Assembly: GCA_016935665.1 (NCBI GenBank)
Contig: JAFGQN010000077.1
Coordinates: forward strand, 36,456-100,455
Direction of reading: 5' to 3'
Length of the DNA stretch: 64,000 nt
From: Deltaproteobacteria bacterium
GTDB taxonomy: Bacteria > Myxococcota_A > Polyangia > JAAYKL01
Under the pieces are notes generated by a model that saw only the letters and a program-made list of their open reading frames with translations, was not told the origin of the DNA and made no database searches. Positions 14,399 through 48,786 of the stretch are shown piece by piece. The stretch's first letter is position 1; each line of letters opens with the position of its first letter. Position numbers and translations under genes: made by a program.

Positions 14399-15793
14399 CT
14401 ATTCTCCAAGTTTACATACAGCAAAGTGCGATAACAATGCGTCCAGTTCATGCTTCTCGATGAGTTCGTCCGCCAGTACAATATCCTGCAGAGAACGCTC
14501 TGTAACGCGGGCGCGTTTCACCAGGTCTGCCACCACTTCATATCCCAGTCTGGAGACCAGGGCCGTCGCCAATGCCGACGATCGCGCCACATTCTCAGCG
14601 GTCTGTTCCTCATCCACCAGAACGGTTTCGATGCAGTGGCGGCGAAAGATGGATACCGCATTGGCGAGCATCTCCAGGTTGCAAAGCAGATTTTCCGCCA
14701 CGATGGGCAAAAACGGATTCAACTCCAGACTGCCGTTTGCACATGCTGTTTTGATCACACTGTCGTTGCCCATCACCTGCATGGCCACCTGAGTCACCGC
14801 CTCGGGGATGACCGGATTTATTTTGGCGGGCATGATGGATGAGCCCACCTGACGCTGAGTCAGTATCAGCTCTCCGATGCCCGCTTCCGGTCCGCTGGAC
14901 AAAAAGCGAATATCAGAGGCCATCTTCTGCAATGTGGCGGCACAGGCACATATAATGCCGGATACTTCAACATATACATCTGCATTTTGCGTACAGTCCA
15001 CCAGGTTTTCCGCGCGCGCCAGGGGTACCCCCGTTTGCTCCCGAAGCACATCCACCACCTGAAAAATGTATTGTCTGGGAGCACCCAGTCCGGTGCCAAT
15101 CGCAGTTCCCCCCAGATTCACCACACGCAATCGCTCCTGACATTTATAAATGCGCCAGCGATCCCGTCCGGTGGCATCGGCAAACGCACCGAATTGTCTG
15201 CCGACAGTGGTCAGCACCGCATCCTGATACTGAGTGCGCCCCACCTTGACCACTTCAGCGAACTGTTTTTCCTTTTCCTGTAATGACTCCTGAAGCAGCA
15301 GTATCTGCTGTTCCAACTCCTGAAGCAGTCTAATGGCCGCCAGTTTCAGCGCGGTGGGATAGGTATCATTGGTGGACTGATGCAGATTCACATGGTTCAA
15401 AGGAGAGATAACACCGTAGCTCCCAGGTGATTTGCCAAGGCGCAAAAGGGCGGCATTGGCCAGCACTTCATTGACATTCATATTGGTGCTGGTGCCCGCT
15501 CCGCCCTGAAATGCATCCACAACAATGTGTTCAGTAAATTCCCCGTCATCCATCTGCATACATACCGCCAGTAATGCATCGATGGCGGGTGGGCTCAAAT
15601 TCAGTTTGGCAAGGTCTCTGTTGACTGTGGCGGCCGCTCTTTTTACGGCGCCAAATGCGCGAATCAGGGAGGGGTGTGGCGTCCGTCTTGATAATGGAAA
15701 GTTTTCCAGCGCCCGCGCGGTGTGAATGCCAAACAAGGCGTCTTGGGGCACCTGCATTTGGCCGAGGCTATCTTTTTCGGTGCGAAAGGACAT
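14399..15793 (-). CDS. aspA: Aspartate ammonia-lyase (fumarase/aspartase family)
   Basis: The chosen start (15793, MSFRTEKDSLG) has AAAGG upstream, avoids overlap with hydG and gives 464 residues, the normal family length. The signature loop GSSIMPAKINPVIPE (GSxxMPxKxN) carries the catalytic Ser; NMNVNEVLAN and HVNLHQSTNDTYP are also family-typical. The reaction converts L-aspartate to fumarate plus ammonia. It sits 13 nt after hydG and directly against hydF. aspA-like genes are known neighbours of hyd maturases, where a supply of fumarate or ammonia has been suggested; that link is inferred. Confidence 0.92.
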   Translation of the reverse strand: MSFRTEKDSLGQMQVPQDALFGIHTARALENFPLSRRTPHPSLIRAFGAVKRAAATVNRDLAKLNLSPPAIDALLAVCMQMDDGEFTEHIVVDAFQGGAGTSTNMNVNEVLANAALLRLGKSPGSYGVISPLNHVNLHQSTNDTYPTALKLAAIRLLQELEQQILLLQESLQEKEKQFAEVVKVGRTQYQDAVLTTVGRQFGAFADATGRDRWRIYKCQERLRVVNLGGTAIGTGLGAPRQYIFQVVDVLREQTGVPLARAENLVDCTQNADVYVEVSGIICACAATLQKMASDIRFLSSGPEAGIGELILTQRQVGSSIMPAKINPVIPEAVTQVAMQVMGNDSVIKTACANGSLELNPFLPIVAENLLCNLEMLANAVSIFRRHCIETVLVDEEQTAENVARSSALATALVSRLGYEVVADLVKRARVTERSLQDIVLADELIEKHELDALLSHFAVCKLGE

Positions 15794-15806
15794 CGTGCGC
15801 CTTTTC

Positions 15807-17204
15807 TCAGCAGTATACATCCCGTTTGCCGTCATGGATTCTGGTCAGTAATTTTTCGGAAATGCGTCGAGGTTCGTCGTCCAATTGGCTCATTGTGTTC
15901 TGAATGCACTGCTCCCCCACCCTGCGTGTTTCCTCTGAGGCGAAATCCTTGAGGTACTCCATGAACGTTGAAATGCCATTGGGATCGCAGTGACGGCGAA
16001 TATCCCCGGGGCGCGCCATATCCATGAAATCAGCGCCAACGCGACCGAGCCGATAGCAGCCGGTGCAAAAGGACGGCATATAACCCATCGAGGCAACGTC
16101 GCGCACCACCTCATCGAGTGAACGGTGATCTCCCAGCGAAAACTGAGAACCGTTGTCGCCCTGGATTTCGCTGTACCCCCCCGGATTGGTTCGACTGCCG
16201 GCCGAAATCTGTGACACGCCCAGCGCAAAACTTTCGCGACGGATATTGGGTGTTTCACGGGTCGACATAATGATGCCGGTATACGGCACAGACAGCCGCA
16301 ATATGGCAACCAGTTTCTGAAAAGATTTATCATCAATTGGCGCAGGTGGTCTCGACGCCATGGGAGAACCGCTGGCGGGTTCCAGCCGTGGTACGCTCAC
16401 CGTGTGAGGACCAATGCCAAATCGTCGTTCGAGGTACTCGATATGGCTTTTCAGTGCCAGCATCTCGTAACGCCAGTCACACAATCCGAACAGCACCCCA
16501 ATTCCCACATCATTAAGGCCCGCCTCCAGGGCTCTGTCAATGGCACTCAGACGCCAGTTGTAATCGGCTTTTTTTCCGGCCAGATGGACCTGACTGTATA
16601 CCTTGCGATTATAGGTCTCCTGAAACAGCTGATACGTGCCGATTTTCCGTTCCTTCAACTGCAAAAACTCGTCCGCCGTTAATGGTGCCACGTTCACGTT
16701 GACTCTGCGGATTTCTCCTGAGCCTTCACGAACACTGTAGATTGTATCTATGGCATCCAGTACGTAGTTGAAACCCTGTTTGGGATACGACTCTCCGGCC
16801 ACCAATAGCACGCGTTTGTGCCCGCTCGAAATAAGAGCAAGAGTTTCCCGTGCAATTTCGTCCTGTGTCAGGGAGCGCCGTTCAATGTCTTTGTTTTTTG
16901 CGCGAAATGCACAATACGTGCATTCATTTTTACACAGGTTTGACACGTACATCGGTGCAAAAATAACGAGTCGCCGACCGTAAATCTCATTTTTCACATA
17001 ACGCGCGGCGGAAAACAATTCATTGAGCAGCGGCTCGCTTTCAATCGCCATGAGGCCAATCATGTCGCTCTGATTTAACCCTTTGAGTTCTCTGGCTTTA
17101 TCCAGAATCTCCCGAACCCAAATGTCATCTTCACTCCGTTCGCGACGGAGTACTTGAGTGATATACTTATCATTTACAATTGGTTCACGCCGGGGCATCA
17201 GCAT
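15807..17204 (-). CDS. hydG: [FeFe]-hydrogenase maturase HydG (radical SAM tyrosine lyase)
   Basis: ATG 17204 is preferred (465 residues): GGGAGAGG lies 7 nt upstream, whereas the track GTG at 17210 would be too close. The protein cleaves tyrosine to make the CO and CN ligands of the H-cluster. The radical SAM triad is CKNECTYC (Cx3Cx2C). The C-terminal auxiliary cluster pattern Cx2Cx22C is present (CTGC...RRHC). It lies 14 nt downstream of the receiver-kinase hybrid. hydE, the third maturase, is not in this window. Confidence 0.97.
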   Translation of the reverse strand: MLMPRREPIVNDKYITQVLRRERSEDDIWVREILDKARELKGLNQSDMIGLMAIESEPLLNELFSAARYVKNEIYGRRLVIFAPMYVSNLCKNECTYCAFRAKNKDIERRSLTQDEIARETLALISSGHKRVLLVAGESYPKQGFNYVLDAIDTIYSVREGSGEIRRVNVNVAPLTADEFLQLKERKIGTYQLFQETYNRKVYSQVHLAGKKADYNWRLSAIDRALEAGLNDVGIGVLFGLCDWRYEMLALKSHIEYLERRFGIGPHTVSVPRLEPASGSPMASRPPAPIDDKSFQKLVAILRLSVPYTGIIMSTRETPNIRRESFALGVSQISAGSRTNPGGYSEIQGDNGSQFSLGDHRSLDEVVRDVASMGYMPSFCTGCYRLGRVGADFMDMARPGDIRRHCDPNGISTFMEYLKDFASEETRRVGEQCIQNTMSQLDDEPRRISEKLLTRIHDGKRDVYC

Positions 17205-17224
17205 TGGCACACCTCTCCCTTTTA

Positions 17225-18352
17225 TTAAACAGATTGAACGGGAAGCTCCACTTTAAAAGTTGTTCCCTTTTCCCACTCACTGATGGCGCGAATATCGCCA
17301 CCATACAACTGAACGATTTTTTTCACCGTAGACAATCCCAAACCAGAGCCTTCGATATGTCTCGTTTTTTCGTTTTTCATTCGAACAAATTCACCAAAAA
17401 GCTTACCAAGTTCCTTCTCGGTCATCCCGATACCGGTATCTTCGATTTCAACCTGATACCCCCTGGCGTCTTTCAACACTCGCACCATCACCTTGCCGTT
17501 GTCTCGATTGTATTTCACCGCATTGGAAACCAGATTGTTCATCACAATTTCAATCTCGCTGCGATCTCCTTCAAAGATCATATACGGAGCAACTTCCAGC
17601 TCCAGCGAAATTCCTCTGGCATTGGCACTGAATTCCACAAGTTCGAGGGCGCCACGAAGCAGTTCCCCAAGGTCAATCGGCTCAAGTTTGCGCTGTTTTG
17701 TTCCCGCTTCAATCCGAGTTAAATCGAGTAAGTCAAAAATAAGTTTTCGCATGCCCGCCAGCCGGGCGAGGCTGCGCTCCACGATGCGAGTCTGGGTCTC
17801 TTCATCTTTAACGGCACCGCTTCGAAACAGCTCCAGATACCCTTCCACAGCACCGATTGGCGCTTTCAACTCATGGGAAAGCACCGATATAAATTCAAAC
17901 CGAACACGACGCTTTTCATCCGCCAGTTTTTGGGCCTGCCGCTGTAGAATCAAATTTTTGGTAGCCTGGCGCACAGTGGCCCGAAGCTCCTGCGGCGTAA
18001 ACGGTTTGGCCAGAAAATCAAATGCCCCCTGCTTTGTCGCCGATACGGCAATATCGAGGGATGCATACGCGGTCATCATGATCACCAGAGCATCGGGACA
18101 CAGTTTTTTTGCTTCAGATAACACCTCGATACCACTGATTCCTGGCAATTTGTAGTCCAGCAAAAGAAGGTCGTATGAATTCTCCTTCAGTCGCTCCACC
18201 GCTTCCTCGCCGGAAGCGGCCAAATCCAGTTCAAACGAAACGTTGCAATCCAAATCATGAAAGCTGGCCACATATTTGCGCAGTGCCCGCTGCACTCCCA
18301 GGCGCATTCCGTCCTCGTCATCAGTGACAAGTATGCGGGTGACATCGGTCAT
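17225..18352 (-). CDS. Response regulator-histidine kinase hybrid
   Basis: The 375-residue soluble protein has an N-terminal receiver domain (about residues 5-130; LVTDDEDGMR, phosphoacceptor in LLLLDYKLPG, FLAKPF) directly followed by a HisKA domain (FISVLSHELKAPIGAVEGY, phospho-His) and HATPase_c (NNLVSNAVKYN, DTGIGM, GSGLGLSTV). There is no membrane segment or PAS domain, so it likely takes phosphate or docks a partner through its receiver. It overlaps the upstream stand-alone receiver gene by 4 nt and precedes hydG, implying a phosphorelay inside the hydrogenase operon. Confidence 0.93.
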   Translation of the reverse strand: MTDVTRILVTDDEDGMRLGVQRALRKYVASFHDLDCNVSFELDLAASGEEAVERLKENSYDLLLLDYKLPGISGIEVLSEAKKLCPDALVIMMTAYASLDIAVSATKQGAFDFLAKPFTPQELRATVRQATKNLILQRQAQKLADEKRRVRFEFISVLSHELKAPIGAVEGYLELFRSGAVKDEETQTRIVERSLARLAGMRKLIFDLLDLTRIEAGTKQRKLEPIDLGELLRGALELVEFSANARGISLELEVAPYMIFEGDRSEIEIVMNNLVSNAVKYNRDNGKVMVRVLKDARGYQVEIEDTGIGMTEKELGKLFGEFVRMKNEKTRHIEGSGLGLSTVKKIVQLYGGDIRAISEWEKGTTFKVELPVQSV

Positions 18353-18753
18353 ATTTTATCCGTTTTACACAGGCGATGAATTTCGCGTTTGAGTTGTTCA
18401 AAGCGGATGGGTTTAGGCAATATGGCATCGGCCTTAATCCACGATCCCTCTTCGCCCACCGTCCCAAATTCCAAACCGGTTTCACTGGTTACCGCGGTGA
18501 CAAGAATCACTGGAACGCCGGCATCTTTCTTTTTGATATTGTATGCAAGTACGAATCCATCATCGGTTTCATCCATCATCAGGTCCAGAATCGCCAAATC
18601 CGGCGTCACGGTTTCCAACAGTTTCTCGGCTTCCCTGCGCGAATGGGCGGCAACCACTTCATAGTTTTCAGTCTCCAGAAACAACCGGTGCTGCTCCAAA
18701 AAATCTACATCATCATCTACAAGTAAAACGATCTTCTTCAAATTGCTGTTCAT
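18349..18753 (-). CDS. Stand-alone response regulator receiver protein
   Basis: Starting at ATG 18753 (GAGGA upstream) gives 134 residues that are almost entirely one receiver domain: VLLVDDDVDF, phosphoacceptor in LAILDLMMDET, VILVTAVTS and ILPKPIRFEQ. There is no output domain, so it probably relays phosphate to or from the adjacent kinases. A 70-nt gap, the largest in the operon, separates it from the hydrogenase-like sensor kinase gene, and it overlaps the hybrid kinase gene as ATGA. Confidence 0.9.
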   Translation of the reverse strand: MNSNLKKIVLLVDDDVDFLEQHRLFLETENYEVVAAHSRREAEKLLETVTPDLAILDLMMDETDDGFVLAYNIKKKDAGVPVILVTAVTSETGLEFGTVGEEGSWIKADAILPKPIRFEQLKREIHRLCKTDKI

Positions 18754-18823
18754 GGTTGTCCTCTTTATTTCGTTTGCAGTAATTCCACTGGATGCTTCCA
18801 TTCCAGGACGGAAGCATCAACGA

Positions 18824-20845
18824 CTAACTGGCGCCTGAGCGCCTTGGAATACTGACTGTAAATTTTGTTCCGGTAGGCCCCCCTGACGCATCCGCGTTGG
18901 AGCTTACTGAAATTTGTCCCCGGTGCATTTTCACGATGCCATATGACACGCTCAATCCGAGTCCCGTTCCCTTTCCAATTTTCTTGGTAGTAAAAAACGG
19001 TTGAAACACCTTGTCGATATTGTCTTTAGCGATGCCCACGCCAGTGTCCTTGAAAGTAAATTTAACTCTGGACGAGTCATCTTTGGTGCAAATGGTTAAT
19101 TGGCCTCCATCCGGCATTGCCGCATAGGCGTTGGCAATAATATTGGTAAATACCTGCGTCATCTGATCCGGGTCCATTTCGCAAATGGAATCGGCGTGTC
19201 CAAACTTCATGTCCACCCCAATGTTCTCGGGTCTGGGAATGCTTTCCACGCATTGACGCAGATGCTGCTCCAGATTCACTTCTTCAAACAGCACCTTGTT
19301 TTCCCGGGCAAAATCAAGCAGATTGGAAACGATTCGCTTACTGCGCTGCGCCTGATCTGCAATGAGTTTGAGGTCTTCGTACATCTCTGACTGAGTGTTG
19401 ATTTCATCCAGCAGAAGATGAGAGTACATCAGCACCACCCCAAGTGGATTATTCAACTCATGGGCCACACCAGCGGCCAGCTGTCCCATGCTTGCCAGTT
19501 TTTCCGATTGAATCAACTGATCCTGTGCATTCGCCAGCCGCTTGTCGGAAACAGACAAATCATTAATGGTCTGCTTCAGCCGTTCAATCACGTAAGGCAG
19601 GCACATTTCCTCCTCGGCCAGCCCTTTGTGAATGGCAATGGCATGGGCGCGACAGGTGGGATATCCGCAGGCGCCGCAATTGAGTTCGTCAGAATAATCC
19701 TTTTTCCCCAGACGTTCCAGAATATCGTGCAGTTCATCGTATGATGGCGTGGGAATACGCTGATCATCCGGTGAAAATTCGCGAGACAAATCCAGCGATG
19801 CAAATCGATTCATATCCTCATGGTGCTGTTGTTTTTTTGACTGATAGTTGCGAAACCGCACGTATTGACTCACCCGGGAACGGCGCCGAAACTGTGGCTC
19901 GGTGGACACCATTCCCGGGCCCATAATACAACCGTTACATGAGAGAACTTCCAGCAGCTTCGCATCCATTTTACTGTCGGCAAATTCCTCGATAGCCTGA
20001 ACAAACTCAATGATTCCATCCGCGGTCACGATTTCATCGCCAACCAGATCCTCATACATATCGGCGGCCTGCAGCATGCCCCGTGTGATGGGGAACAACG
20101 CTCCAAGTCCACCATGAGGCGGATCAAAATCGGAAGTAATTGCGGTTTTCGATGAAATTCTGGCCACAGAAAACATCTCTTTAAGCTCTTTAAACGTGAG
20201 AACTTCATCAATTTCGCCAGCCACGTCATCGCTGCAGGCTTCCGCCTTTTTAGCGATGCAGGGGCCAATGAACACTACCTTTAACTCCGGGCCATGTATC
20301 TCATGTAACGCTCTGGCCAGTGCAATCATAGGTGAAACAATAGGCGCCAGCTGCGGCACGATATTGGAATGGTATTTCTCCACATAGCTGACCACAGCCG
20401 GACAGGTCGTGGCAATATAGCCGCGCACATTGCGCTCCAGCATCAGTCGACGGTAGCGTTCCGCCACCAAATCCGCACCAAATGAAACTTCAGTGACCAA
20501 ATCGAAACCCAGCTCGCGCAACATTCCCACCAGCACCCGAAAATCCATACCTGGAAACTCCGCGGGAAAACTGGGTGCAATGCACGCGACCACCTGTTTT
20601 TCGCTTTTCAAAAGCGTTTCCACAGATTTGGTGGCGCGAACAAAACGTTTCGCCCCCTGACTGCATACCTTGACGCAGTTACCACAGGCAATGCATCGAG
20701 GCGGCATCACTTCGGCCTGCCCATCCTCAATGCGAATGGCTTTGGCGGGACACTCACGGACGCAGGTGTAGCATACTCTGCATTTATCCTTGATGGTGCG
20801 CACAAAACCGGTTTGTGCCGTTGTCAAAGGTTCTTTATTGCTCAT
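18824..20845 (-). CDS. [FeFe]-hydrogenase-like sensor histidine kinase (HydS-type)
   Basis: Domains of the 673-residue protein, in order: two [4Fe-4S] ferredoxin motifs (Cys22-32 and 51-61); an H-cluster-type hydrogenase domain (about 80-320); an RnfB-like Fe-S domain NCGACGYPTC...C (Cys390-415); then HisKA (GVAHELNNPLG, His462) and HATPase_c (NIIANAYAAM, DTGVGI, GTGLGLSVSYG). In the hydrogenase domain L1 is ATTCPAVV (Cys148), L2 is GPCIAKKAE (Cys196) and L3 is SCNGCIMGPG (Cys303/306, CxxC rather than CxxxC). The proton-relay Cys of TSCCP is Thr. It is likely a soluble sensor of H2 or redox state signalling to the adjacent receivers. Confidence 0.9.
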   Translation of the reverse strand: MSNKEPLTTAQTGFVRTIKDKCRVCYTCVRECPAKAIRIEDGQAEVMPPRCIACGNCVKVCSQGAKRFVRATKSVETLLKSEKQVVACIAPSFPAEFPGMDFRVLVGMLRELGFDLVTEVSFGADLVAERYRRLMLERNVRGYIATTCPAVVSYVEKYHSNIVPQLAPIVSPMIALARALHEIHGPELKVVFIGPCIAKKAEACSDDVAGEIDEVLTFKELKEMFSVARISSKTAITSDFDPPHGGLGALFPITRGMLQAADMYEDLVGDEIVTADGIIEFVQAIEEFADSKMDAKLLEVLSCNGCIMGPGMVSTEPQFRRRSRVSQYVRFRNYQSKKQQHHEDMNRFASLDLSREFSPDDQRIPTPSYDELHDILERLGKKDYSDELNCGACGYPTCRAHAIAIHKGLAEEEMCLPYVIERLKQTINDLSVSDKRLANAQDQLIQSEKLASMGQLAAGVAHELNNPLGVVLMYSHLLLDEINTQSEMYEDLKLIADQAQRSKRIVSNLLDFARENKVLFEEVNLEQHLRQCVESIPRPENIGVDMKFGHADSICEMDPDQMTQVFTNIIANAYAAMPDGGQLTICTKDDSSRVKFTFKDTGVGIAKDNIDKVFQPFFTTKKIGKGTGLGLSVSYGIVKMHRGQISVSSNADASGGPTGTKFTVSIPRRSGAS

Positions 20846-20858
20846 GATGCGCCATCTG

Positions 20859-22583
20859 TTATTTCAAAACATCTGTCCGCGCCACATAACTCGTATGCAG
20901 CAACCGGTGTGACTTCTCTCCATTGGGCGTTCCCAAAAACTCCTTGTACAGACGGTGAACAGCTGGATTCTGATGACTGGTTCGCAATGTCTCCTCCTGA
21001 TCCAGTCGATACAGCGCCTTCTGACGCTGGCGCACGGTATCGGGAGATAGATTGATTGGCTGGCCGCCACCGGATACACATCCGCCAGGGCAAGTCATCA
21101 CCTCAATGAAGTGAATATCATTTCGCCCCTCTTTTATTTCGTCCAGCAGTTTTCTGGCATTGGCCAAACCACTGACCACCGCTACGCCCAGTTCCAGATC
21201 GCCCACCTGTATTCTGGCTTCCTTGCGTCCTTTGCTGCCACGTACTGCGGGTATTTTGAGGTCCGTCAATTCTTCGGAGGTCACCATGTGATACGCGGTT
21301 CTCAATGCCGCTTCCATAACACCACCGCTACCGCCAAACAACTTACCGGCAGAACTGCGCTCCCCAAACGGGTTGTCCGCGGTTTCGCCCGGGATATTTT
21401 CAATATCAATACCGTGCATCTTTATCAGCTGCGCCAATTCCCGGGTGGTCAACACAAAATCCACGTCCGGAATGTCGTCCACAATCATCTCATTTCGACT
21501 GGCTTCAAACTTCTTGGCCGTGCAGGGCATGATGGACACACTGACGACATCCTTGGGGTCCAACCCTTCCCGTCTGGCAAAAAAACTTTTAATGATGGCG
21601 CCCATCATCTGCTGCGGACTTTTACAGGTGGAGAGATTGGGAATCATTTCCGGATAGTACTGCTCCACAAACTTAATCCAGCCTGGGGAACATGATGTCA
21701 TCATGGGCAACGTTCCGCCATGGGTGAGCCTTGAAACCAGTTCTGATGCTTCTTCCATAATGGTGAGGTCCGCACTGAACGATGTATCAAAGACGCGATC
21801 AAATCCAAGTCGTCTCAACGCGGCAACCATCTCCTTGTCAATATCTGTCCCCGGTTTCACACCGAACTCTTCGGCCAGCGTTACCGAAACACTGGGGGCA
21901 TGCTGAACCACAACGTACTTTCTGGGATCGGCCAGCGCTGCCATCACGTCTTCCACGTTGCGTTTTTCCACCAAAGCGCCAGTGGGGCACACCAGGGAGC
22001 ACTGACCGCAGTTAATGCAGCTGGACACATTCAGCCCCTCATCGAATGACGTGCCCACAGTGGAGTCTGCCCCGCGACCGATAAAATCAATGGCGCCCAC
22101 ATTCTGAATTTCCTCACAAACGCGCACACAACGCCCGCACAGGATGCATTTTTCGGGATCCCGCACCAACGACGGGTTGGCCACATCCACTTTCATTTTT
22201 TTTCGTTCGCCTTTGTAACGACGTTGGCGCACACCCAGTTCCGCCGCCAGCGTCTGTAATTCGCAATTGCCGTTGCGCGCGCAGTAGTTGCAATCATCGG
22301 GATGGCTGGACAGCAGCAATTCCACAATGGTCTTTCGCGCCTGGACGGCTTTGGCGGAGTGGGTGGAAATTTTCATGCCATCTGATACGGGAAAGGCACA
22401 ACTGGGAACCAGATTTCCACGTCCTTCCACTTCCACCACGCACATGCGACAGGCACCGGTGGGATTCAAGCCTTCAACATTGCACAGAGTCGGGACCTTG
22501 ACACCTTCACGGCGCAGCACTTCCAGCAGGGTTTCTCCAATTTTAGCTTCGGCAACTCTTCCATTTATCTCAATCTGACACAT
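20859..22583 (-). CDS. hydA: NAD(P)-linked [FeFe]-hydrogenase catalytic subunit (HydA/HndD type)
   Basis: The 574-residue protein contains an N-terminal [2Fe-2S] domain (Cys34, 45, 48, 62), a His-Cys [4Fe-4S] site (HPDDCNYCARNGNC, about 94-107), two [4Fe-4S] motifs (CILCGRCVRVC, CINCGQCSLVCP) and the H-cluster domain with L1 TSCSPGW (296-302), L2 MPCTAKKFE and L3 EVMTCPGGCVSGGG (Cys498/502). A small-subunit-like tail (RQRQKALYRLDQE...) is fused at the C-terminus. With the NuoE- and NuoF-like partners upstream it forms a trimeric cytoplasmic hydrogenase, likely NADH/ferredoxin coupled. L1 has Ser where many monomeric enzymes have the second Cys. Confidence 0.97.
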   Translation of the reverse strand: MCQIEINGRVAEAKIGETLLEVLRREGVKVPTLCNVEGLNPTGACRMCVVEVEGRGNLVPSCAFPVSDGMKISTHSAKAVQARKTIVELLLSSHPDDCNYCARNGNCELQTLAAELGVRQRRYKGERKKMKVDVANPSLVRDPEKCILCGRCVRVCEEIQNVGAIDFIGRGADSTVGTSFDEGLNVSSCINCGQCSLVCPTGALVEKRNVEDVMAALADPRKYVVVQHAPSVSVTLAEEFGVKPGTDIDKEMVAALRRLGFDRVFDTSFSADLTIMEEASELVSRLTHGGTLPMMTSCSPGWIKFVEQYYPEMIPNLSTCKSPQQMMGAIIKSFFARREGLDPKDVVSVSIMPCTAKKFEASRNEMIVDDIPDVDFVLTTRELAQLIKMHGIDIENIPGETADNPFGERSSAGKLFGGSGGVMEAALRTAYHMVTSEELTDLKIPAVRGSKGRKEARIQVGDLELGVAVVSGLANARKLLDEIKEGRNDIHFIEVMTCPGGCVSGGGQPINLSPDTVRQRQKALYRLDQEETLRTSHQNPAVHRLYKEFLGTPNGEKSHRLLHTSYVARTDVLK

Positions 22584-22598
22584 CGCAATACCTCATTA

Positions 22599-24596
22599 TC
22601 AGGAAACAATTACAGCGTTCTGTTTGCAGACGTCGTAACAGGCGCCGCATCCAATGCATTTGTCGGGTACAATGTAGTGAGGCGCTTTCTTCGCGCCCAT
22701 AATGGCTTTTGTGGGGCACTTGCGTCCGCACAGCATGCATCCAGTGCATTTTTCAGCATCAATGGTATACGACAATAACTCGCGGCACACTCCGGCAGGG
22801 CATCTCCGCTGGTAAACGTGCGCCTCGTACTCGTCACGGAACCAGCGCAATGTACTGAGCACTGGATTGGGCGCCGATTGTCCAAGACCGCACAGACTGG
22901 TATCCTGAATAACGCGCGCCAGTTTTTCCATTTCGGTGATGCCCTTGAAACGATCGAGCGCTTCCACTTTTTCGTGGCCGCCGCGACCGCTGGTAATACG
23001 CTCAAGGATTTCCAGCATACGCCGGGTTCCCTCACGACAGGGAATACATTTTCCGCAGCTTTCACGCTGGATGAAGTCCATGAAAAATTTGGCCACGTCC
23101 ACCATGCAGGTTTTTTCGTCCATAACCACCAGACCACCGGATCCCATCATGGCGCCGACGGTTTTCAGATTTTCGTAATCAATTTTGATGTCAAGATGCT
23201 CTTTGGGGACGCACCCACCGGAGGGGCCGCCAATCTGAACGCCCTTAAACTCGTTGCCATCCGGAACACCGCCACCGATTTTAAATATGATGTCGCGAAT
23301 AGTTGTACCCATTTCCACCTCGATGAGCCCGGTTCGCTTCACCTTTCCAGATACCGCAAACACCTTGGTGCCTTTGCTGGTAGCGGTGCCGGTTTTTGCG
23401 AATTCGGAGGCCCCCATTTTGAAAAGTCTGGGCAAATTGGCCAGCGTTTCCACGTTGTTTATGCTGGTGGGCTTGCCAAACAATCCACTCACCGCCGGAT
23501 ATGGCGGTCGGGGCCGGGGCATACCTCGCTTACCTTCGATACTGTTGATCAATGCAGTTTCCTCGCCACACACAAACGCACCGGCACCCATCTTCACGAT
23601 GATCTCCAGACTGAAACCACTATCGAGAATATTGCTTCCAAGAAGGCCGTTCTCCTTTGCCTGGGCGATAGCGATATTCAGGTGGCGAATAGCCAGGGGA
23701 TATTCAGCGCGGATGTAAATGTACGCTTTTGAGGCGCCATTGGCGTATGCAGCGATAGCCAGACCTTCGACAAGACAATGGGGATCGCCTTCGATAACGG
23801 CCCGGTCCATGAACGCGCCGGGGTCGCCTTCATCGGCATTGCAAATCATATATTTCTGATCCGCTTCGTTGGCGCGGGCCAGTTTCCATTTGCGCCCCGT
23901 GAGAAAACCACCGCCACCGCGACCGCGCAGACCGGAGAGTTCCACCGCATCACAAAGCTCATCCGGCGTCATCTCGCGAATGACTTTGGCAAAGGATGCG
24001 TATCCCCCCCTTGCAATGTATTCCGCGATGCGAACCGGGCTGATGACACCACAGTTGGCCAGCACCCAGCGTTTTTGCCCCGCGAAAAACGATTCTTCAT
24101 CCATGAACGGCACGCCGCGCCAGGACTCAAAGTCTCTGGAGCGCCACTGAAATATTGTCTTAACATTTTCGGGCAGCTCATGGCCAAACACTGCCGAGAG
24201 CAAATTTTCAATTTTGTCTGCCGTCACTTCTCCAAAGGATACACGGGTGCGACCGGGCATCTGAATATCCACCACTGGCTCCACTGCGCATGCCCCCACA
24301 CACCCCACTTGAATCACATCAGCATCCACGTTGTGATCTTCGAGATATTTGTTGATGGCCTTCAATGTCTGGCCGGCACCGGCGCCCAGACCACATGTGC
24401 CTGTTCCAATATACACCACTGGTTTGGTGATCATGCCTCGCAGCATTTCGCCTTTCCATGCCGATACTTTCATGGCCACATCGTGGTCTTCAAAACATTT
24501 GGGACCACTCTGAAGACAATCCACAAACTGGGGACACGGAGTATCAATCGAGTGGGTGCATCTTTCGTCATCAATAATATTCAGCAGTGCGGTCAT
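22599..24596 (-). CDS. hydB: NuoF-like flavoprotein subunit of [FeFe]-hydrogenase (HydB/HndC type)
   Basis: The 665-residue protein is the diaphorase subunit. An N-terminal thioredoxin-like [2Fe-2S] domain (GTGTCGLGAG...VGCVGACAVEP) is fused to the NuoF core with the FMN/NADH site (GLRGRGGGGFLTGRKW, NADEGDPGAFMDR), an SLBB segment and a [4Fe-4S] site (SCGKCIPCREG). Two C-terminal ferredoxin motifs follow (CTGCMLCGRKCP, CIGCGACYDVC). Its extreme N-terminus carries four extra Cys (CTHSIDTPC...C...C). ATGA overlaps the NuoE-like gene stop, and the hydrogenase gene follows after 15 nt. Confidence 0.96.
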   Translation of the reverse strand: MTALLNIIDDERCTHSIDTPCPQFVDCLQSGPKCFEDHDVAMKVSAWKGEMLRGMITKPVVYIGTGTCGLGAGAGQTLKAINKYLEDHNVDADVIQVGCVGACAVEPVVDIQMPGRTRVSFGEVTADKIENLLSAVFGHELPENVKTIFQWRSRDFESWRGVPFMDEESFFAGQKRWVLANCGVISPVRIAEYIARGGYASFAKVIREMTPDELCDAVELSGLRGRGGGGFLTGRKWKLARANEADQKYMICNADEGDPGAFMDRAVIEGDPHCLVEGLAIAAYANGASKAYIYIRAEYPLAIRHLNIAIAQAKENGLLGSNILDSGFSLEIIVKMGAGAFVCGEETALINSIEGKRGMPRPRPPYPAVSGLFGKPTSINNVETLANLPRLFKMGASEFAKTGTATSKGTKVFAVSGKVKRTGLIEVEMGTTIRDIIFKIGGGVPDGNEFKGVQIGGPSGGCVPKEHLDIKIDYENLKTVGAMMGSGGLVVMDEKTCMVDVAKFFMDFIQRESCGKCIPCREGTRRMLEILERITSGRGGHEKVEALDRFKGITEMEKLARVIQDTSLCGLGQSAPNPVLSTLRWFRDEYEAHVYQRRCPAGVCRELLSYTIDAEKCTGCMLCGRKCPTKAIMGAKKAPHYIVPDKCIGCGACYDVCKQNAVIVS

Positions 24597-41795: not shown

Positions 41796-42335
41796 TTACT
41801 TGTATTGCGCGTTGTACATCTGGATAAGTTGGTCCGTTAAGTCCAAATGCGCCGGAGCCCACACCACCGCTCCAACAGAACGATCATAAATCATCGTATA
41901 TCCGTCTTTTTTCCCAATTTCCGCAACAATTTTCTCCATTTTGATGAGGATTTCCTGAGTGGCTTTCATTTCCTTTTGTGCCAATTCCTGCTGAAACTGT
42001 CCATAACTCTGCTGAAGTTCCTGCACAGATTGATAATACTCCTGTGCCTTTTTCTGGAGCGCTTCCTGGCTCAAAATGCTCTGCTGCTCCTTCAGCTTTT
42101 CCTGCATCGCCATGATGCTTTTTTCTTTTGTATCTATTTTTTTCTGCAGTTTATCTTTTTCTTTCTGCAGTTTTTTCATGGCCCGCTTTCCTTCATTTGT
42201 CTCATTGAGCGCTCGTCGAAGGTCAACGAAAGCAATCTTTACTTCTTTTGCCGAAGATTTCTGCGTAATGGAAAATACCATTGCAGCACATAGAACAACC
42301 CAAAACAACTTCTGTGTATTTTTTACTACTCTCAT
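41796..42335 (-). CDS. skp: OmpH/Skp family periplasmic chaperone
   Basis: The start at ATG 42335 (MRVVKNTQKLFWVVLCAAMVF...) gives 179 residues with a signal peptide; the track's TTG start is less likely. The mature protein opens with KIAFVDLRRALNET and continues as a long charged coiled coil (KKLQKEKDKLQKKIDTKEKSI...), then returns to the body domain (YTMIYDRSVGAVVWAPAHLDLTDQLIQMYN). Skp escorts outer-membrane proteins to BamA, whose gene is directly upstream. Confidence 0.92.
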   Translation of the reverse strand: MRVVKNTQKLFWVVLCAAMVFSITQKSSAKEVKIAFVDLRRALNETNEGKRAMKKLQKEKDKLQKKIDTKEKSIMAMQEKLKEQQSILSQEALQKKAQEYYQSVQELQQSYGQFQQELAQKEMKATQEILIKMEKIVAEIGKKDGYTMIYDRSVGAVVWAPAHLDLTDQLIQMYNAQYK

Positions 42336-42474
42336 AATCTCCTCATTGTTCAAATGACCAGGCTCATCCCCGCTTGGACACCTTGATTACCAAATTATTT
42401 AGAAAAAAATAACTTCTAAATTTTTCCAAATGCTGTCCCTTTTACGAGTTGGCACTCCATTGAAACGTTCTGGC

Positions 42475-45003
42475 TTAGAAGAAATTTCCGAAAGTGAATT
42501 CAAACAATGCATTATCTTCATCTTCATATCGCTTCAATGGGAATCCCCACTCAAATCGAAGTGGTCCCATTGGAGAGAACCACCTCAATCCAAAACCAAC
42601 AGAGGTTCTCAGATAGATGGGATTCCTGTTACAGGGGTCCGTATATTTTGTGATACCGCGACCAGTCCCGCCCTGGCACCACGAATCCTCAAGATTAAAC
42701 GAGTTACCGGCATCAAAGAAAACGACCCCATTTATATTGGCCATTTCGATAATGGGAAACTCAATCTCTGTATTGAACGTCACTCGCATATTTCCACCAA
42801 TTCCTATACCGCCCGGAATGGGTTCCGCATTGGGATTGAATTTTTGTGGAATTGACAATTTGGGTCCCAGGGACATGGGGGAGTAGCCGCGAACGTCCAT
42901 AATCCCCCCCGAACGATAGCGCAGTGATATGGGGAGTCCCTGGCTGTTATTGGAATAAATCAGCCCCAGATTGGCATTGAACCGAAACACAAACTTCCAA
43001 AGCAGGGGGAAATACCATTTAGAGTTAAATGTGTATCGTGTATAATCGAAATCCGACCCCAGATATTTGCTTGCCCACTCCATCCCAACTGAATTGTAGG
43101 ATCCCTTGGTTGGGAAAAGCCGGTTGTTGCGCAGGTCATAAACCAGTCGCCCGTTCACCGAAGAGCTCCATCCCTCCTGGAACAGGTACGCTAGAGGCAA
43201 CTCGTTGAAACCACTCGATGTTCGTTGCCCGCTAATCAATAGGCCATCGTTGGAACCCAGGTTTATTTTATCGTATTGCAAATCATAGCTGAGATACAGC
43301 CGTAAGTCCCGAAGAATCAGAGAATGCCCGAGTGTCAGCTCCCCACCCGTCGATGTTTTCGCGTAGTCGGTCAGCCCCACGGTGGTGTTGAACAATTTGA
43401 ACGCGAACGTCCAGTCAGTGTCCAGAAAGTGCGGTTCCCAGAAGTCGAAATTAAACATCTGTCGCATCCTTGAAAGCTGCGCCTGGAGGGACACCGTCTG
43501 TCCATTTCCCATAAAGTTCTGCTCAGTAATTCGAGCCTGGGCAATAAAATTCTCAACAGTGCTGAATCCCATTCCCACCTGAAACTGGCCCGTATGCTTC
43601 TCCACCACTTCAACGGTTGCGATAACTTTGTCCTGGTTGCTGCCCGGACGAGTCGTCAGTTCAACCGACTCGAAGAATCCGAGTTGCGTAACTCGGGCCT
43701 TGGAAATATCAATACCGGTCTGACTATATTTATCGCCTTCGTATATATCCAATTGATTTCGAATTACCCTGTCTCGGGTTTTCGTGTTGCCATGCAGTTC
43801 AATTCGCTCAAAATAAACCAGAGGCCCCCGAGTAACTTCGAGTACCAAATCCACTATTCTGGTTTCTTCATTGGTGATCGTTTTCAATTCCACGTTGGCA
43901 TACGCAAAGCCGGCGTCCTGGTAATGCCGCGTAATCCGATCCACATCTTCCATGATGGACGTTCTGGAAAAATATTCGTCGCGTTGCGTATGAACCATAG
44001 CGCGAACTTTTCGTCGGCCTCCCAGAAGCTCTATCTTCTCCCCCGCCACATTGCGCTCCACAACATTGATTCGCCCGACTTTATATCGCGGACCTTCAAC
44101 AATAGGAACTGAAAGGAAGATATACCTACGATCCACAGACAGTTCCACCCTTGGAGTTCCCACCTGAATATTAATGTATCCCTGATCCCAATAGAGTGCC
44201 TGAATCATGGTCATATCCCGGTCAAACAGTTCGCGATTAAATTTACCGGAATCTGTCAAAGCGGAAAGTGGACCGCCGGTTCTGGTGGCCATATATCGGG
44301 AGATTTCAGCATCGGAGATGGCGTGATTTCCAACAAAAGTGATTTTACGTACTTCCACCTGAGCGTGCTCCGAAATCACGAAAATCACATCAAAAATATT
44401 CTCCCCCCGAGCTTCTTCCAACCGAAAGGTCACCTCCGAAAGGAAGTATCCCTGTTCGGTATACAGATCTCGGATTTTCTGAACATTCCGATGCACTGAT
44501 GGAATATCGAGAGGTGTGTTCTCTTCAAGATCAATGACCTCGAGGATATCGTCTTCATCTATTTCGTCGTTCCCCTCAATGCGTACCTCATGAATCGCCC
44601 GCTTTTCCAGCAATTGAAATCGAAGAAGGACGCCCTGCTCCACCTCGGAGACAAACACCTGCACATCTTCGAAAAAACCGAGATTGTATATCGCCTTCAC
44701 ATCACGACTGATTCGAGCAGCGTTGTATTTCATTCCTTTTCGAGTTCCGATGTTGGCACGAATATCATCCGCCCCCACACGACGATTTCCCACGACTTCA
44801 ATGCCGACAACCGTCTGATCGTGATACTTTTCCCCAATTTTAATGACGTTCTCGAAGGGGCGCGCCTCTTCGGACGGGGGCTCTTCAACAGAAATGGAAG
44901 GCTGATTCAATCGCATCCCGCCGCCGAGTTCCTGAGCAGCAACGGGCCAACTTCCTGCAATTATCAGGAGTAATAGAGCTGTTTTGACATTCTTTATAAT
45001 CAT
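42475..45003 (-). CDS. bamA: Outer membrane protein assembly factor BamA
   Basis: The start at ATG 45003 gives 842 residues and a signal peptide (MIIKNVKTALLLLIIAGSWPVAA). Five POTRA-like repeats (first VVGIEVVGNRRVGADDIRANIGTRKG) precede a 16-strand surface-antigen barrel with the conserved RGY motif (DVRGYSPMSLGP) and a C-terminal aromatic residue (ALFEFTFGNFF). It is the core insertase for outer-membrane barrels. ompH/skp follows at 139 nt, the usual arrangement. Confidence 0.97.
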   Translation of the reverse strand: MIIKNVKTALLLLIIAGSWPVAAQELGGGMRLNQPSISVEEPPSEEARPFENVIKIGEKYHDQTVVGIEVVGNRRVGADDIRANIGTRKGMKYNAARISRDVKAIYNLGFFEDVQVFVSEVEQGVLLRFQLLEKRAIHEVRIEGNDEIDEDDILEVIDLEENTPLDIPSVHRNVQKIRDLYTEQGYFLSEVTFRLEEARGENIFDVIFVISEHAQVEVRKITFVGNHAISDAEISRYMATRTGGPLSALTDSGKFNRELFDRDMTMIQALYWDQGYINIQVGTPRVELSVDRRYIFLSVPIVEGPRYKVGRINVVERNVAGEKIELLGGRRKVRAMVHTQRDEYFSRTSIMEDVDRITRHYQDAGFAYANVELKTITNEETRIVDLVLEVTRGPLVYFERIELHGNTKTRDRVIRNQLDIYEGDKYSQTGIDISKARVTQLGFFESVELTTRPGSNQDKVIATVEVVEKHTGQFQVGMGFSTVENFIAQARITEQNFMGNGQTVSLQAQLSRMRQMFNFDFWEPHFLDTDWTFAFKLFNTTVGLTDYAKTSTGGELTLGHSLILRDLRLYLSYDLQYDKINLGSNDGLLISGQRTSSGFNELPLAYLFQEGWSSSVNGRLVYDLRNNRLFPTKGSYNSVGMEWASKYLGSDFDYTRYTFNSKWYFPLLWKFVFRFNANLGLIYSNNSQGLPISLRYRSGGIMDVRGYSPMSLGPKLSIPQKFNPNAEPIPGGIGIGGNMRVTFNTEIEFPIIEMANINGVVFFDAGNSFNLEDSWCQGGTGRGITKYTDPCNRNPIYLRTSVGFGLRWFSPMGPLRFEWGFPLKRYEDEDNALFEFTFGNFF

Positions 45004-45085
45004 AATTGTCGAGTACAACTTTCGTCAGTAGTTCGATCCATTTTTCAAAATCCACTATTATCGAAAACAGAAAATGGAATGCGGT

Positions 45086-45199: not shown

Positions 45200-45958
45200 T
45201 CAAACGATATCAATTACTGATTCCGATAAATAACGCACAAGAATGGAGATGATTTGCCATAAAAACAAAACCAGAACGAGTTGAATCAGGTATACTCGCA
45301 ATATTGGAATCAATGCGTTTGAACCGCTTCCCACCAGTCGCCAAAGTACACCCATCACTGTTTCAACCAAAATCGCTGTGACGAAAAGCGGAGCCGACAC
45401 CAAAATCCCAAACATGAACGCCGCCGAGAGCAGACGCAGCATCCGGTACAGCAACGTCTCATCAATAAAAGCACCGTCCGCGCCTCCCATGGGCGGAAGC
45501 ATCATTAAATGATGGTGCAACGCCTGAATTAACAGATGATGACCATCAGTGACGAAGAACACGCATGTCGCCAGATAAAAGGTCAAACTGCCATAAAGAG
45601 ATAGCGGTGCGGTTGGCATATCCAAAAAAATCACATTATTCTGCAATCCACCGGCAATACACAGCGCTGTCCAGCACATCCTTAAAGACAAACCAATCAG
45701 CAGACCATAACCGAACTCCGTCGCCAGCAGAAACAGGCCTGTCGGCCACGCAACAGGGACGACGACGCCAGCGGCTTCGATCGTTCCAGGGAGAAAGAAT
45801 GCTGCCAATGCAAGGGAAAAACCGCCCACCACTGCGATGGGCAATGCTCTGACACCCAACGCCGGAAAAAAAACAAGTGCGACAAAAAATCGGATGAAAA
45901 TCGAAGCAAATGTAAAAAGAACCTGCCATTCGGCATCAGGAAATATGTCCGCATACAT
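45200..45958 (-). CDS. FliR/SctT-type export apparatus membrane protein
   Basis: The 252-residue protein has about six hydrophobic segments with FliR-like features: FASIFIRFFVALVFFPALG near the N-terminus, LLATEFGYGLLIGLSLRM in the middle and a C-terminal LIPILRVYLIQLVLVLF segment. FliR/SctT completes the flagellar or type III secretion export gate. It begins 1 nt after the FliQ-like stop. No other flagellar or injectisome gene is in the window, so which machine it serves is unknown; the gene is placed between bamA and an AgmX-domain gene. Confidence 0.82.
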   Translation of the reverse strand: MYADIFPDAEWQVLFTFASIFIRFFVALVFFPALGVRALPIAVVGGFSLALAAFFLPGTIEAAGVVVPVAWPTGLFLLATEFGYGLLIGLSLRMCWTALCIAGGLQNNVIFLDMPTAPLSLYGSLTFYLATCVFFVTDGHHLLIQALHHHLMMLPPMGGADGAFIDETLLYRMLRLLSAAFMFGILVSAPLFVTAILVETVMGVLWRLVGSGSNALIPILRVYLIQLVLVLFLWQIISILVRYLSESVIDIV

Positions 45959-45959
45959 G

Positions 45960-46229
45960 TCACTGCACCACAGCTTGCAGCAACTGCCAGGTTTTCTCTG
46001 TAAAGCCGAGGACGCGCTGCGCTATCCACGGCGCGAATACCAGCAGTCCCGCCAGCACGGCAAGAATTCGCGCCATGCTGCCAATCGCCGGTTCTGAAAG
46101 CTTTGTGTAATGGGATAACCAGCCGACCAGCACACTTGTAAGCAGTGCTGCGGTAAGCACTGGCGCACATAACAGTAACAGCAGAAAGAGCGCCTCTTCA
46201 AACAGCTCAACCAGAAAGGCAGCATCCAT
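45960..46229 (-). CDS. FliQ/SctS-type export apparatus membrane protein
   Basis: The 89-residue protein is the standard FliQ size, with two hydrophobic hairpin segments (ALFLLLLLCAPVLTAALLTSVLVGWL and MARILAVLAGLLVFAPWI). The polar turn LSHYTKLSEPAIG replaces the common QATTQINEQTL loop. FliQ/SctS subunits stack with FliP and FliR in the export gate. The FliR-like gene follows after 1 nt. The initiation region has only a weak ribosome-binding site, so coupling to the upstream AgmX-domain gene, 6 nt away, is likely. Confidence 0.8.
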   Translation of the reverse strand: MDAAFLVELFEEALFLLLLLCAPVLTAALLTSVLVGWLSHYTKLSEPAIGSMARILAVLAGLLVFAPWIAQRVLGFTEKTWQLLQAVVQ

Positions 46230-46235
46230 CTCGAA

Positions 46236-47129
46236 TTATCTTGAAGGAGTGAAAACGATGGGGAACTGAACAGATGATGAGTCCGTGGCGGGCGGAAAAA
46301 CCCACCGTTTTATGGCGCCACCCATGCAATTGTTTAACGTGGGAATCCGTGCGCCCGGACCAGTGACACGTACGCCGGTCACTGTTCCGGATTTGCCGAC
46401 AGTCACATGAAATGTGGCTTTCAAATCCGACGAGGTAGGGGCGGTGCCGCTTTTCAATGCCCGCTCATAGCATTGCTGAAGACTGCTACGATGCCTGGTG
46501 ACCACGCGATTCAATTCTGTTGCAGTTAATCCCTGTCTCTTCGCTCCGCCGCTTCCGGCACTTTTACGGCGAGCGTCCACGTTTAAATTGGCCAGAAGCT
46601 CCTGTTTCCGTTCGGCACGCGTGGCAGAACGCGCCTTTTTTCCCTGACGGCTGCCACGAGCCACCTTATCGCGTCCGCTACCCGACAGAGCGTCCGTTTC
46701 TTCCATGTCGCCGGACTCGGACAATGGTCTATCCCGGTAAACTATTTCAGTTTTCGTGACCAGCTTCTCCTTCACCACGGTTTTGGGAGGCATGGCAGAC
46801 ATCACCAGGAAGACCACCAGGGCTCCAATACCAATTCCCGCAATAAATGATATCAGCCACCCGACCCACCGTTTCCCAGAGACAAATTGCTCCGGCAAAA
46901 AAGTGCTCAAACGGCTCAAACGAGACGGAACATCCCAGTGGCTATGCTCCTTGTCGGAAAACCCTGTCAGCGAACGACCCACAACGGCATCAACACTGGT
47001 ATGGACAGCATTAATATCAGAATTAATATCAGCCTCGACCGCAGATACCTGTATATCGAAGAACGACGGTTCACTTTCAGCGGGTCTGGTAAACGAATCC
47101 GCATACTGCTGCTCAAACACCGATTTCAA
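46236..47129 (-). CDS. Membrane protein with AgmX/PglI-type C-terminal domain
   Basis: The 297-residue protein probably starts at TTG 47129, 8 nt after GGGGGGAG. A cytoplasmic N-terminal part (about 1-85) precedes one membrane segment (WVGWLISFIAGIGIGALVVFLVMSAM). A basic linker follows (GKKARSATRAERKQ), then the C-terminal domain: LNRVVTRHRSSLQQCYERALK...FHVTVGKSGTVTGVRV...NNCMGGAIKRWVFPP. This TonB-like fold is typical of Myxococcota AgmX/PglI proteins connected with gliding or envelope machinery. Together with the two export-gate genes just downstream it may form one unit. Confidence 0.8.
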   Translation of the reverse strand: MKSVFEQQYADSFTRPAESEPSFFDIQVSAVEADINSDINAVHTSVDAVVGRSLTGFSDKEHSHWDVPSRLSRLSTFLPEQFVSGKRWVGWLISFIAGIGIGALVVFLVMSAMPPKTVVKEKLVTKTEIVYRDRPLSESGDMEETDALSGSGRDKVARGSRQGKKARSATRAERKQELLANLNVDARRKSAGSGGAKRQGLTATELNRVVTRHRSSLQQCYERALKSGTAPTSSDLKATFHVTVGKSGTVTGVRVTGPGARIPTLNNCMGGAIKRWVFPPATDSSSVQFPIVFTPSR

Positions 47130-47146
47130 AAAAATATCTCCCCCCC

Positions 47147-48529
47147 CTACAGTATATCTATTAAATGCTGCTTTATGCTGTTTCGGGTCTCATCGTCCGG
47201 ACAATAATGCAATGAACGCTCCCAGGTTTCAATAGCTTTAAACTTGAACCCGGCTTTTTGATAGAGGAGCGCCAGATTCTTCATCGCCGGAAAGTAGTTG
47301 GGCTCCAACTCCAGCGTACTTTCCAATTCCCGAATAGCCTGGTAGTTCAACGCCTTTTTTCCAAGCAATAATGCCAGATTGTAGTGGAGTTTGTAGGCGA
47401 GCGGATCGATCTCGAGCCCGCGTTTGAGTAAATCAATCGCCCGGTCCACGTCGCCACCTTTGTACGCTTTAATAGCCTGGGCCAGGATATCCTCGGTCTT
47501 TCTGGTGAGATCTTCCTGGGCTTCAACGAAATCGCTGTTGTCTTCAGCGAGCAACTTTTCCACCTTCTCAATGAACTCTGCCAGCTTGAACGGTTTTTCG
47601 ATAAAATCGTCCACACCATAGGAATCTTTTAAATCCTGTGCATATCGCCATCCCCGATAAATTGCGGATATCATAATTACAGGGATATGGCCGTATTTCT
47701 TGCTTCCTTTAATTTTTCTGCAAATATCGAAGCCGTGCACTTCGGGAAGCATTGCGTCCAGGATAATCATATCCGGTTCTTCGTTCTGAACCATTTGAAC
47801 CGCCTCAAGACCCCGTCCAGCCGTCACCACATCGTAACCCTTTTCAGTCAGCACCCTGGAAATCAATAGCCGAATATCATCTTCATCATCCACAACCAGA
47901 ATTTTCTTTGGCGGCTCCAACTCGGGCTGAGGCTCATCTTCTATTCCGCCAAGCATTCCCAATGGCGGCACCTGCTCGGAAGACGCAAAATCCATCTCCA
48001 ATTCGAGCCCGCCCATGCCGTCCGCATCGTCATTCGGAGTCTCAGAGGTGCGCTTTGCAGCATTGCTGCCAGGCGAAATCGCCGCATCTACCAGTGTATT
48101 AAATGGACCGATGTATTTTCGTCTTCCAGATTCCTTTTCCGAATAACAGATCTCGATCATCTTTATTAACTGAGGTCGCAGTGAGACGCTCGGCATCACA
48201 GTTTTCCCGGAAACAAACTCAATTTCATCGATAATTTTATGGTCTTCAGGCGCTGCCATCGCCAGGTGCAGCATATCACCTGATACGGCAATGGGTAAAA
48301 TCACGTGCTGTTCTGCAATCTCGCGTGGGACAATATCAAGAATGGACAAATCAATTTTCAACGCCTCAAGGTTTACGCCTTGAACCTGTGTCTGGCTTGC
48401 CAGTTTTTCCAATCTATCATTTATGTCAGCAAGCTTTTCCTGGACGTCAGCATCTGACGTGCCAAAGGAACTCGAGGTCGTCCGCGAAAGGTGTATCATT
48501 CCAAGGTCGTTTTTTTTGTCCTGGCTCAT
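47147..48529 (-). CDS. MshEN-receiver-TPR response regulator
   Basis: The start at ATG 48529 (MSQDKKNDLGM) gives 460 residues. An N-terminal GspE-type MshEN domain (IDLSILDIVPREIAEQHVILPIAVSGDMLHLAMAAPED), a known c-di-GMP-binding fold, precedes a linker, a receiver domain (ILVVDDEDDIR, phosphoacceptor in MIILDAMLPEVHG, FIEKPFKLAEF) and three TPR motifs (ALNYQAIRELESTLELEPNYFPAMKNLALL). It may couple second-messenger and phosphorylation input to protein contacts; binding is inferred. It ends 17 nt before the AgmX-domain gene. Confidence 0.85.
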   Translation of the reverse strand: MSQDKKNDLGMIHLSRTTSSSFGTSDADVQEKLADINDRLEKLASQTQVQGVNLEALKIDLSILDIVPREIAEQHVILPIAVSGDMLHLAMAAPEDHKIIDEIEFVSGKTVMPSVSLRPQLIKMIEICYSEKESGRRKYIGPFNTLVDAAISPGSNAAKRTSETPNDDADGMGGLELEMDFASSEQVPPLGMLGGIEDEPQPELEPPKKILVVDDEDDIRLLISRVLTEKGYDVVTAGRGLEAVQMVQNEEPDMIILDAMLPEVHGFDICRKIKGSKKYGHIPVIMISAIYRGWRYAQDLKDSYGVDDFIEKPFKLAEFIEKVEKLLAEDNSDFVEAQEDLTRKTEDILAQAIKAYKGGDVDRAIDLLKRGLEIDPLAYKLHYNLALLLGKKALNYQAIRELESTLELEPNYFPAMKNLALLYQKAGFKFKAIETWERSLHYCPDDETRNSIKQHLIDIL

Positions 48530-48786
48530 ACTGCTCTCTTTGACCTGTTTGCCCCCGTAATTAACTGTTAAATATAATTCCAAAAGATTTTTGAAAACAC
48601 ATTACACATACGAATTATGGACCACAAGCTTAAAAAAAAAAAGCCATTAAAATTATAACTCATAATTCAGTACACTTAAACAAAATCAGTACACGAATGC
48701 CAAACCAGAAATATCTGCCAAACGCCCCGGGATATTTGGAAAAGAAACCCGCAAGAACTCGAGAAAATGAATACCTGGCCAATGAA

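Follow-up and report, generated by a model that had tools for sequence, protein, structure and literature searches.

Lysis of prey in M. xanthus requires the needleless myxobacterial type III secretion system T3SS* jointly with the Kil/Tad pilus. There this system, which is needed for prey lysis, is encoded in a cluster and has no secretin, needle or translocon (PMC10433427, PMC12075869). The description of this 'Myxo' non-flagellar T3SS (NF-T3SS) by Abby and Rocha is limited to Cystobacterineae (PMC3459982). In a later survey, T3SS came mainly from nine Myxococcales genomes and were judged degenerate (PMC10196010), and T3SS* has been stated for Bradymonabacteria on annotation grounds (PMC11509652). 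FliO is known from Myxococcota NF-T3SS (PMC12403147). As judged by gene content, T3SS* is the closest known system to the one described here, the trees below having been sampled without M. xanthus sequences.

The FliQ-FliR locus

Encoded on the minus strand of the window, the whole 64,000-nt stretch of DNA analysed here, are a FliQ and a FliR directly behind a protein with an AgmX-type C-terminal domain (Table 1). The close packing given in a preliminary description agrees exactly with the open reading frames, with 6 nt (46230-46235) between the AgmX-tail and FliQ genes and 1 nt (45959) between FliQ and FliR. The window FliR matches PF01311 with 69.5 bits (cut-off 27.8) and FliQ matches PF01313 with 49.9 bits (cut-off 25). 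Both match the flagellar and injectisome equivalog models well below cut-offs only, FliQ reaching 48.4 bits with TIGR01402 and 41.2 bits with TIGR01403 (SctS). Neighbouring the pair are not flagellar genes but those of the AgmX-tail protein, a BamA-type protein and an MshEN, response-regulator receiver and TPR protein (MshEN-RR-TPR), the last ending 17 nt upstream of the AgmX-tail gene.

Table 1. Export-gate genes of the window and the genes around them
Feature	Coordinates	Strand	Basis
FliR/SctT-type export-gate subunit, 252 aa, non-flagellar (NF) clade	45200..45958	-	PF01311, FliR tree
FliQ/SctS-type export-gate subunit, 89 aa	45960..46229	-	PF01313
AgmX-tail protein, 297 aa, TTG start, predicted single TM and TonB/TolA-like periplasmic C-terminal domain	46236..47129	-	NF033768, AF2 model
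MshEN - response-regulator receiver - TPR protein, conserved upstream neighbour	47147..48583	-	Pfam, synteny
BamA-type outer-membrane assembly protein, retained downstream of the pair in most genomes of the family	42475..45018	-	Sequence resemblance (named without family-model search), synteny
Skp/OmpH-like periplasmic chaperone adjoining BamA, context only	41796..42353	-	Named by resemblance, without model search

The upstream side of the AgmX-tail start (47129-47160, GGGGGGGGAGATATTTTTTTG) has runs of eight G and seven T within the 17-nt gap and start region, at which slipped-strand variation could occur. Elsewhere in the window, a hydrogenase block on the minus strand (13175-24596) encodes HydF, a fumarase/aspartase-type lyase, a radical-SAM protein with a BATS domain, a receiver-histidine kinase, a receiver, an [FeFe]-hydrogenase-domain protein fused to HisKA/HATPase, a NuoG-like [FeFe] hydrogenase and a NuoF-like subunit. 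Hydrogen sensing is a possible role for the hydrogenase-domain/histidine-kinase fusion.

The AgmX-tail protein

The assignment of the third protein to the AgmX/PglI type is upheld by its match to NF033768 (myxo_SS_tail, the AgmX/PglI C-terminal domain; 53.7 bits, cut-off 40). The resemblance is by this C-terminal domain only: the GltJ and GltG equivalogs are matched with 32.4 bits (cut-off 450) and 28.5 bits (cut-off 650), and the full GltJ architecture of Zn-ribbon, GYF and TonB-like domains is absent. The motility function considered in the preliminary description, such as gliding, would accordingly be conjectural. None of the AgmX-tail homologues scored reaches the GltJ cut-off. A GYF_2 domain, lacking in the window copy, occurs in homologues from the same family, and the homologue in G240, a genome of another family, has a Zn-ribbon and GYF as in GltJ.

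In the single-sequence AF2 model (mean pLDDT 62; about 75-87 for the C-terminal domain), one long helix (residues 81-111) is taken as the transmembrane (TM) segment, and the C-terminal domain adopts a TonB-CTD fold, with domains of TonB and TolA as its top Foldseek matches (lowest E 0.005). Sequence searches of the PDB with this protein and with FliR returned no match. The model supports a predicted TonB/TolA-like periplasmic domain carried on a single TM segment.

A second export-gate set in the genome

The window belongs to an 8.16-Mb assembly (G000; 249 contigs, 95% complete, 3.4% contamination), in which profile searches found two FliP, two FliR, two FlhA, one full and one divergent FlhB, one FliF, one short YscJ/FliF-like protein and two ATPases above the FliI/YscN cut-off. 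An ordinary, complete flagellar set occupies contigs C10, C205 and C118 and includes a row of FliM, MotAB-like, FliL-like, FliO, FliP, FliQ, FliR and FlhB genes (several named by sequence resemblance). The preliminary description had named, as what would refute it, a complete flagellar set with the window pair as its only FliQ and FliR. This is not the case, since the flagellum is provided with separate copies of both on C10.

Distributed over six contigs is a second, divergent set: FliO-FliP on C144, FliQ-FliR on C133 (the window), FlhA on C36, FlhB on C46, the YscJ/FliF-like protein on C152 and an SctN/FliI-type ATPase on C82. It comprises the full SctR, S, T, U and V gate of an NF-T3SS, with the C46 FlhB represented by its TM part only. 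The pair had been said to occur without FliP, FlhA and FlhB; this is true of its neighbourhood but not of the genome, where the genome-wide search recovers a second copy of each, separate from the flagellar set. That each of these, like the SctJ-like protein and the SctN-type ATPase, lies on another contig bears out the suggestion of a scattered, non-canonical export apparatus.

The FliO beside FliP on C144 matches PF04347 with 39.7 bits, and FliO is next to SctR also in relatives. The SctJ-like protein is a weak match to PF01514 (38 bits; Pfam cut-off 24.4), and the C82 ATPase scores 409 bits with TIGR02546, below the cut-off of 605, and takes no supported place in the ATPase tree. All pieces have a common tetranucleotide signature (r 0.92-0.99), and homologues of the second set are found in family genomes; MAG contamination is therefore discarded as its origin.

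Adjoining the NF FliO-FliP genes divergently is a flagellin gene (L012, C144, 7337-9405), though the flagellar clusters are on other contigs. Immediately before the SctJ-like gene, and overlapping it by 4 nt, is a gene for a Ser/Thr protein kinase (L029, C152, 5271-7855).

Phylogenetic position

In the unrooted tree of FlhA TM domains (83 rows), the flagellar sequences without exception, the C205 copy among them, group together (100/99). Outside this group are the second FlhA of the family, itself one clade (100/99), the FlhA that stands alone in other Myxococcota, and SctV of injectisomes on rhizobial, Desulfovibrio and Paraburkholderia plasmids. Support for the place of the injectisomes among the Myxococcota rows is weak (92/58). 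The FliP tree separates flagellar sequences from NF and SctR sequences (100/100), with the second FliP of the window genome on the NF side; one FliP row (L300), a 29-residue fragment, had its placement ignored. The phylogeny proposed for FliR gives the same answer, the window copy lying with NF sequences and SctT, apart from the flagellar clade (98/93), on a tree with long branches. A scan of named genomes with the FlhA2 alignment, with mostly flagellar FlhA among the matches listed, served for references only.

In all three trees the second set falls outside the flagellar clade, together with SctV, SctR and SctT, and it is therefore identified as an NF-T3SS export apparatus. Trees and gene content together support assigning the FliQ/FliR pair to a putative second, non-flagellar export gate spread across the genome.

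The presence of injectisome SctV, SctR and SctT on the same side of the trees would also suit an injectisome acquired horizontally and broken up in the window genome. We consider this extremely improbable, given that the family is one clade in the FlhA tree and its genes do not nest inside one injectisome family in the present trees, that the same dispersed set is found in other members of the class and phylum, that FliO is present, and that the genes match the host genome in composition.

Families f39 and f51 contain solitary FlhA-type genes that diverge further still, their branches being very long and their composition odd (L301, L302, L305, L306, L307, L310 and L311).

Conservation and dispersal among relatives

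Matches to the window FliR occur in 13 of 59 relatives. The AgmX linkage holds in relatives: AgmX-tail, FliQ and FliR genes are adjacent and in this order in all nine family genomes with this FliR type (G002-G007, G009, G012 and G013), and the arrangement in the window is therefore not due to chance. MshEN-RR-TPR is upstream in the four family genomes with long enough flanks (G002, G003, G006 and G007), and BamA is downstream in most. G240 has the order MshEN-RR-TPR, AgmX-tail, a small TM protein, FliQ and FliR; the linkage is absent in G225 and G235. A Lon protease gene comes after the NF FliO-FliP genes in four of five family loci examined (L012, L102, L103 and L106).

Across the sampled phylum, FlhA is found either in flagellar clusters or alone, and the NF FlhA loci fetched contain no other gate gene within the flank (mostly 5-10 kb). 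Within the family, no conserved neighbours of solitary FlhA were found. In families f14 and f22 (L221, L222, L223 and L225), solitary FlhA is near dnaX-, YbaB-, recR- and alaS-like genes (named by resemblance only), a housekeeping context.

Scatter is seen also in genomes assembled as single contigs. In G225 (10,327,335 bp) the only FlhA, FliQ-FliR and FliP are at 5.80, 5.75 and 7.98 Mb, with no second copy of any, and in G193 (8.05 Mb) and G065 (5.05 Mb) FliO-P-Q-R-FlhB are together with FlhA far off. Contig breaks are therefore rejected as the source of the scatter. Where T3SS* occupies one clustered locus, the genes here are at separate positions in G225 and on six separate contigs in the window genome. 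Surveys that look for secretion systems by their operons would overlook gate genes placed singly, as these are, among ordinary ones.

A complete flagellar set in the window genome, a FliO accompanying the divergent FliP and the flagellin gene on C144 could be taken to mean that the second set serves the flagellum, its subunits, whether duplicates or leftovers from another flagellum, being exchanged into the flagellum's own export apparatus. FliO was dropped as a sign of flagellar function, since it has already been reported in Myxococcota NF-T3SS (PMC12403147). The three trees part the set from all flagellar homologues, and the set is kept in G225 and in relatives without flagellar FlhA or FliP: the divergent copies are the only ones present in G003, G005, G012 and G013 (G011 is left out, because a possibly flagellar FlhA fragment lies at a contig end there and its assembly is only 71% complete). 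G193, by its size a candidate for Persicimonas caeni, has two sets, whereas G065, probably Bradymonas sediminis, has one and lacks the second, flagellar set, in agreement with reports that P. caeni is flagellated and B. sediminis is not (PMC7188933). Service to the flagellum is, on this evidence, very unlikely.

Domain losses and selection

The SctV of the window genome is composed of the TM domain and a stretch aligning to residues 505-687 of full-length FlhA, that is, subdomains SD3 and SD4. SD1 and SD2 are lost in the window's genus, and full-length SctV is found in G004, G006 and G011 of the same family. SD3 and SD4 are needed for the nonameric ring, and SD1 and SD2 form with SD4 the known docking cleft, chaperone-substrate complexes binding in the SD2-SD4 cleft (PMC9163089). 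SctU of the window genome ends before the NPTH motif of the autocleavage domain, and no NPTH continuation was found in other frames downstream. The motif is kept in Bradymonadia-type SctU and reads NPDH in G021; G029 has neither. With SD1/SD2 missing from SctV and NPTH from SctU, the usual route to classical substrate docking and switching is closed, which counts against the working model proposed below.

FliR and SctV are under purifying selection, with dN/dS among three congeneric genomes of 0.17-0.24 for FliR and 0.15-0.18 for FlhA2. The domain losses, the scatter and the very fast divergence of FliR (25-33% identity within the family) might mark a decaying relic, its genes scattered since the system fell out of use. 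Against this stand the purifying selection, the conserved micro-synteny, the 71-74% identity of the FlhA TM domain within the genus, the presence of the set across the sampled phylum, and the retention of the divergent copies, free of internal stops, by most of the 14 family genomes (13 for FlhA, 12 for FliP). Decay is accordingly judged an unlikely account.

Loss of the domains for docking and switching alongside retention of the TM domain would also fit a gate turned into an envelope device that is driven by protons, does not secrete and is linked to proteins of the AgmX/GltJ/TonB type, for example in gliding or outer-membrane energisation. The conserved operon with a TonB/TolA-fold protein, its position beside BamA and the GltJ-like GYF of homologues (with the Zn-ribbon in G240) point the same way, but an SctN-type ATPase and an SctJ-like protein are still present, which suggests export, and the two genomes without AgmX linkage do not fit. 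Repurposing of this kind is unlikely, if the least so of the alternatives.

A probable dispersed, needleless export apparatus

Given the genes present, their dispersal and phylogeny, the conserved linkage, the loss of domains and the purifying selection, all of them observed, we think it probable that FliQ and FliR are SctS and SctT of a second, NF type III export apparatus related to T3SS*, with genes dispersed singly or in pairs among housekeeping genes. From these we infer a single machine. SctR, with FliO as partner, SctS and SctT would form the inner-membrane pore, which SctU would clamp. SctV, through its TM domain and SD3/SD4 ring, would couple proton flow to export, and the separate SctN-type ATPase would feed substrates. 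The co-transcribed, single-TM TonB/TolA-like protein may span the periplasm and link the gate to the outer envelope, in place of needle and secretin. By analogy with T3SS*, such a machine might transport proteins from the cytoplasm when the cell touches other bacteria, and might have a role in predation.

A wider reading, which we put forward tentatively and hold less likely than not to be right, is that of a phylum-wide lineage of NF gates encoded as dispersed, housekeeping-like genes and overlooked by cluster-based detection. In the window's lineage, the gate would have lost the SctV docking subdomains and the SctU switch domain and be coupled to a TonB/TolA-like trans-periplasmic protein, as a needleless export (or non-secretory proton-driven) machine unlike any described T3SS. 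A literature search, with most subscription papers outside its reach, found no description of dispersed gates of this kind. Any such NF-T3SS, distinct from the clustered types of myxobacteria and injectisomes, would escape surveys that require genes to be co-localised. A dispersed, widespread gate that keeps FliO and lies outside the flagellar clade with injectisomes bears on the origin of injectisomes from flagella, and the natural loss of SD1/SD2 from SctV and of the SctU autocleavage domain under purifying selection offers a direct test of which gate parts are indispensable, and for what.

Comparison with known systems

T3SS* (MXAN_2434-2464), from the same phylum, shares with the present set an SctRSTUV-type apparatus and a FliO homologue (PMC12403147), and its SctN and SctJ have candidate counterparts here in the C82 ATPase and the C152 protein. 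It has been described as an early NF-T3SS branch (PMC3459982), and the present copies appear to be so likewise. The two differ in that T3SS* forms one conserved cluster, whereas six or more separate loci are found here, SctV lacks SD1/SD2 and SctU lacks NPTH (in the window's lineage), and FliQ-FliR are in an operon with a TonB/TolA-fold protein. The chlamydial NF-T3SS is also spread over several loci (at least four; PMC3459982), but these are multi-gene core blocks of a secretin-based injectisome, in contrast with the single genes and pairs in housekeeping contexts described here.

With the flagellar T3SS (FliPQR-FlhBA) the set has in common homologous gate subunits and a retained FliO; it differs in lying outside the flagellar clade in three trees, in coexisting with a separate, complete flagellar set in the same genome, and in being kept in genomes without flagellar FlhA/FliP. 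The gliding proteins AgmX/GltJ and PglI/GltG resemble the AgmX-tail protein in the TonB-like C-terminal myxo_SS_tail domain and the single TM segment, and AgmX/GltJ further in the GYF domain of family relatives and the Zn-ribbon and GYF of G240. The window protein differs from both in scoring far below the equivalog cut-offs and in its linkage to export-gate genes.
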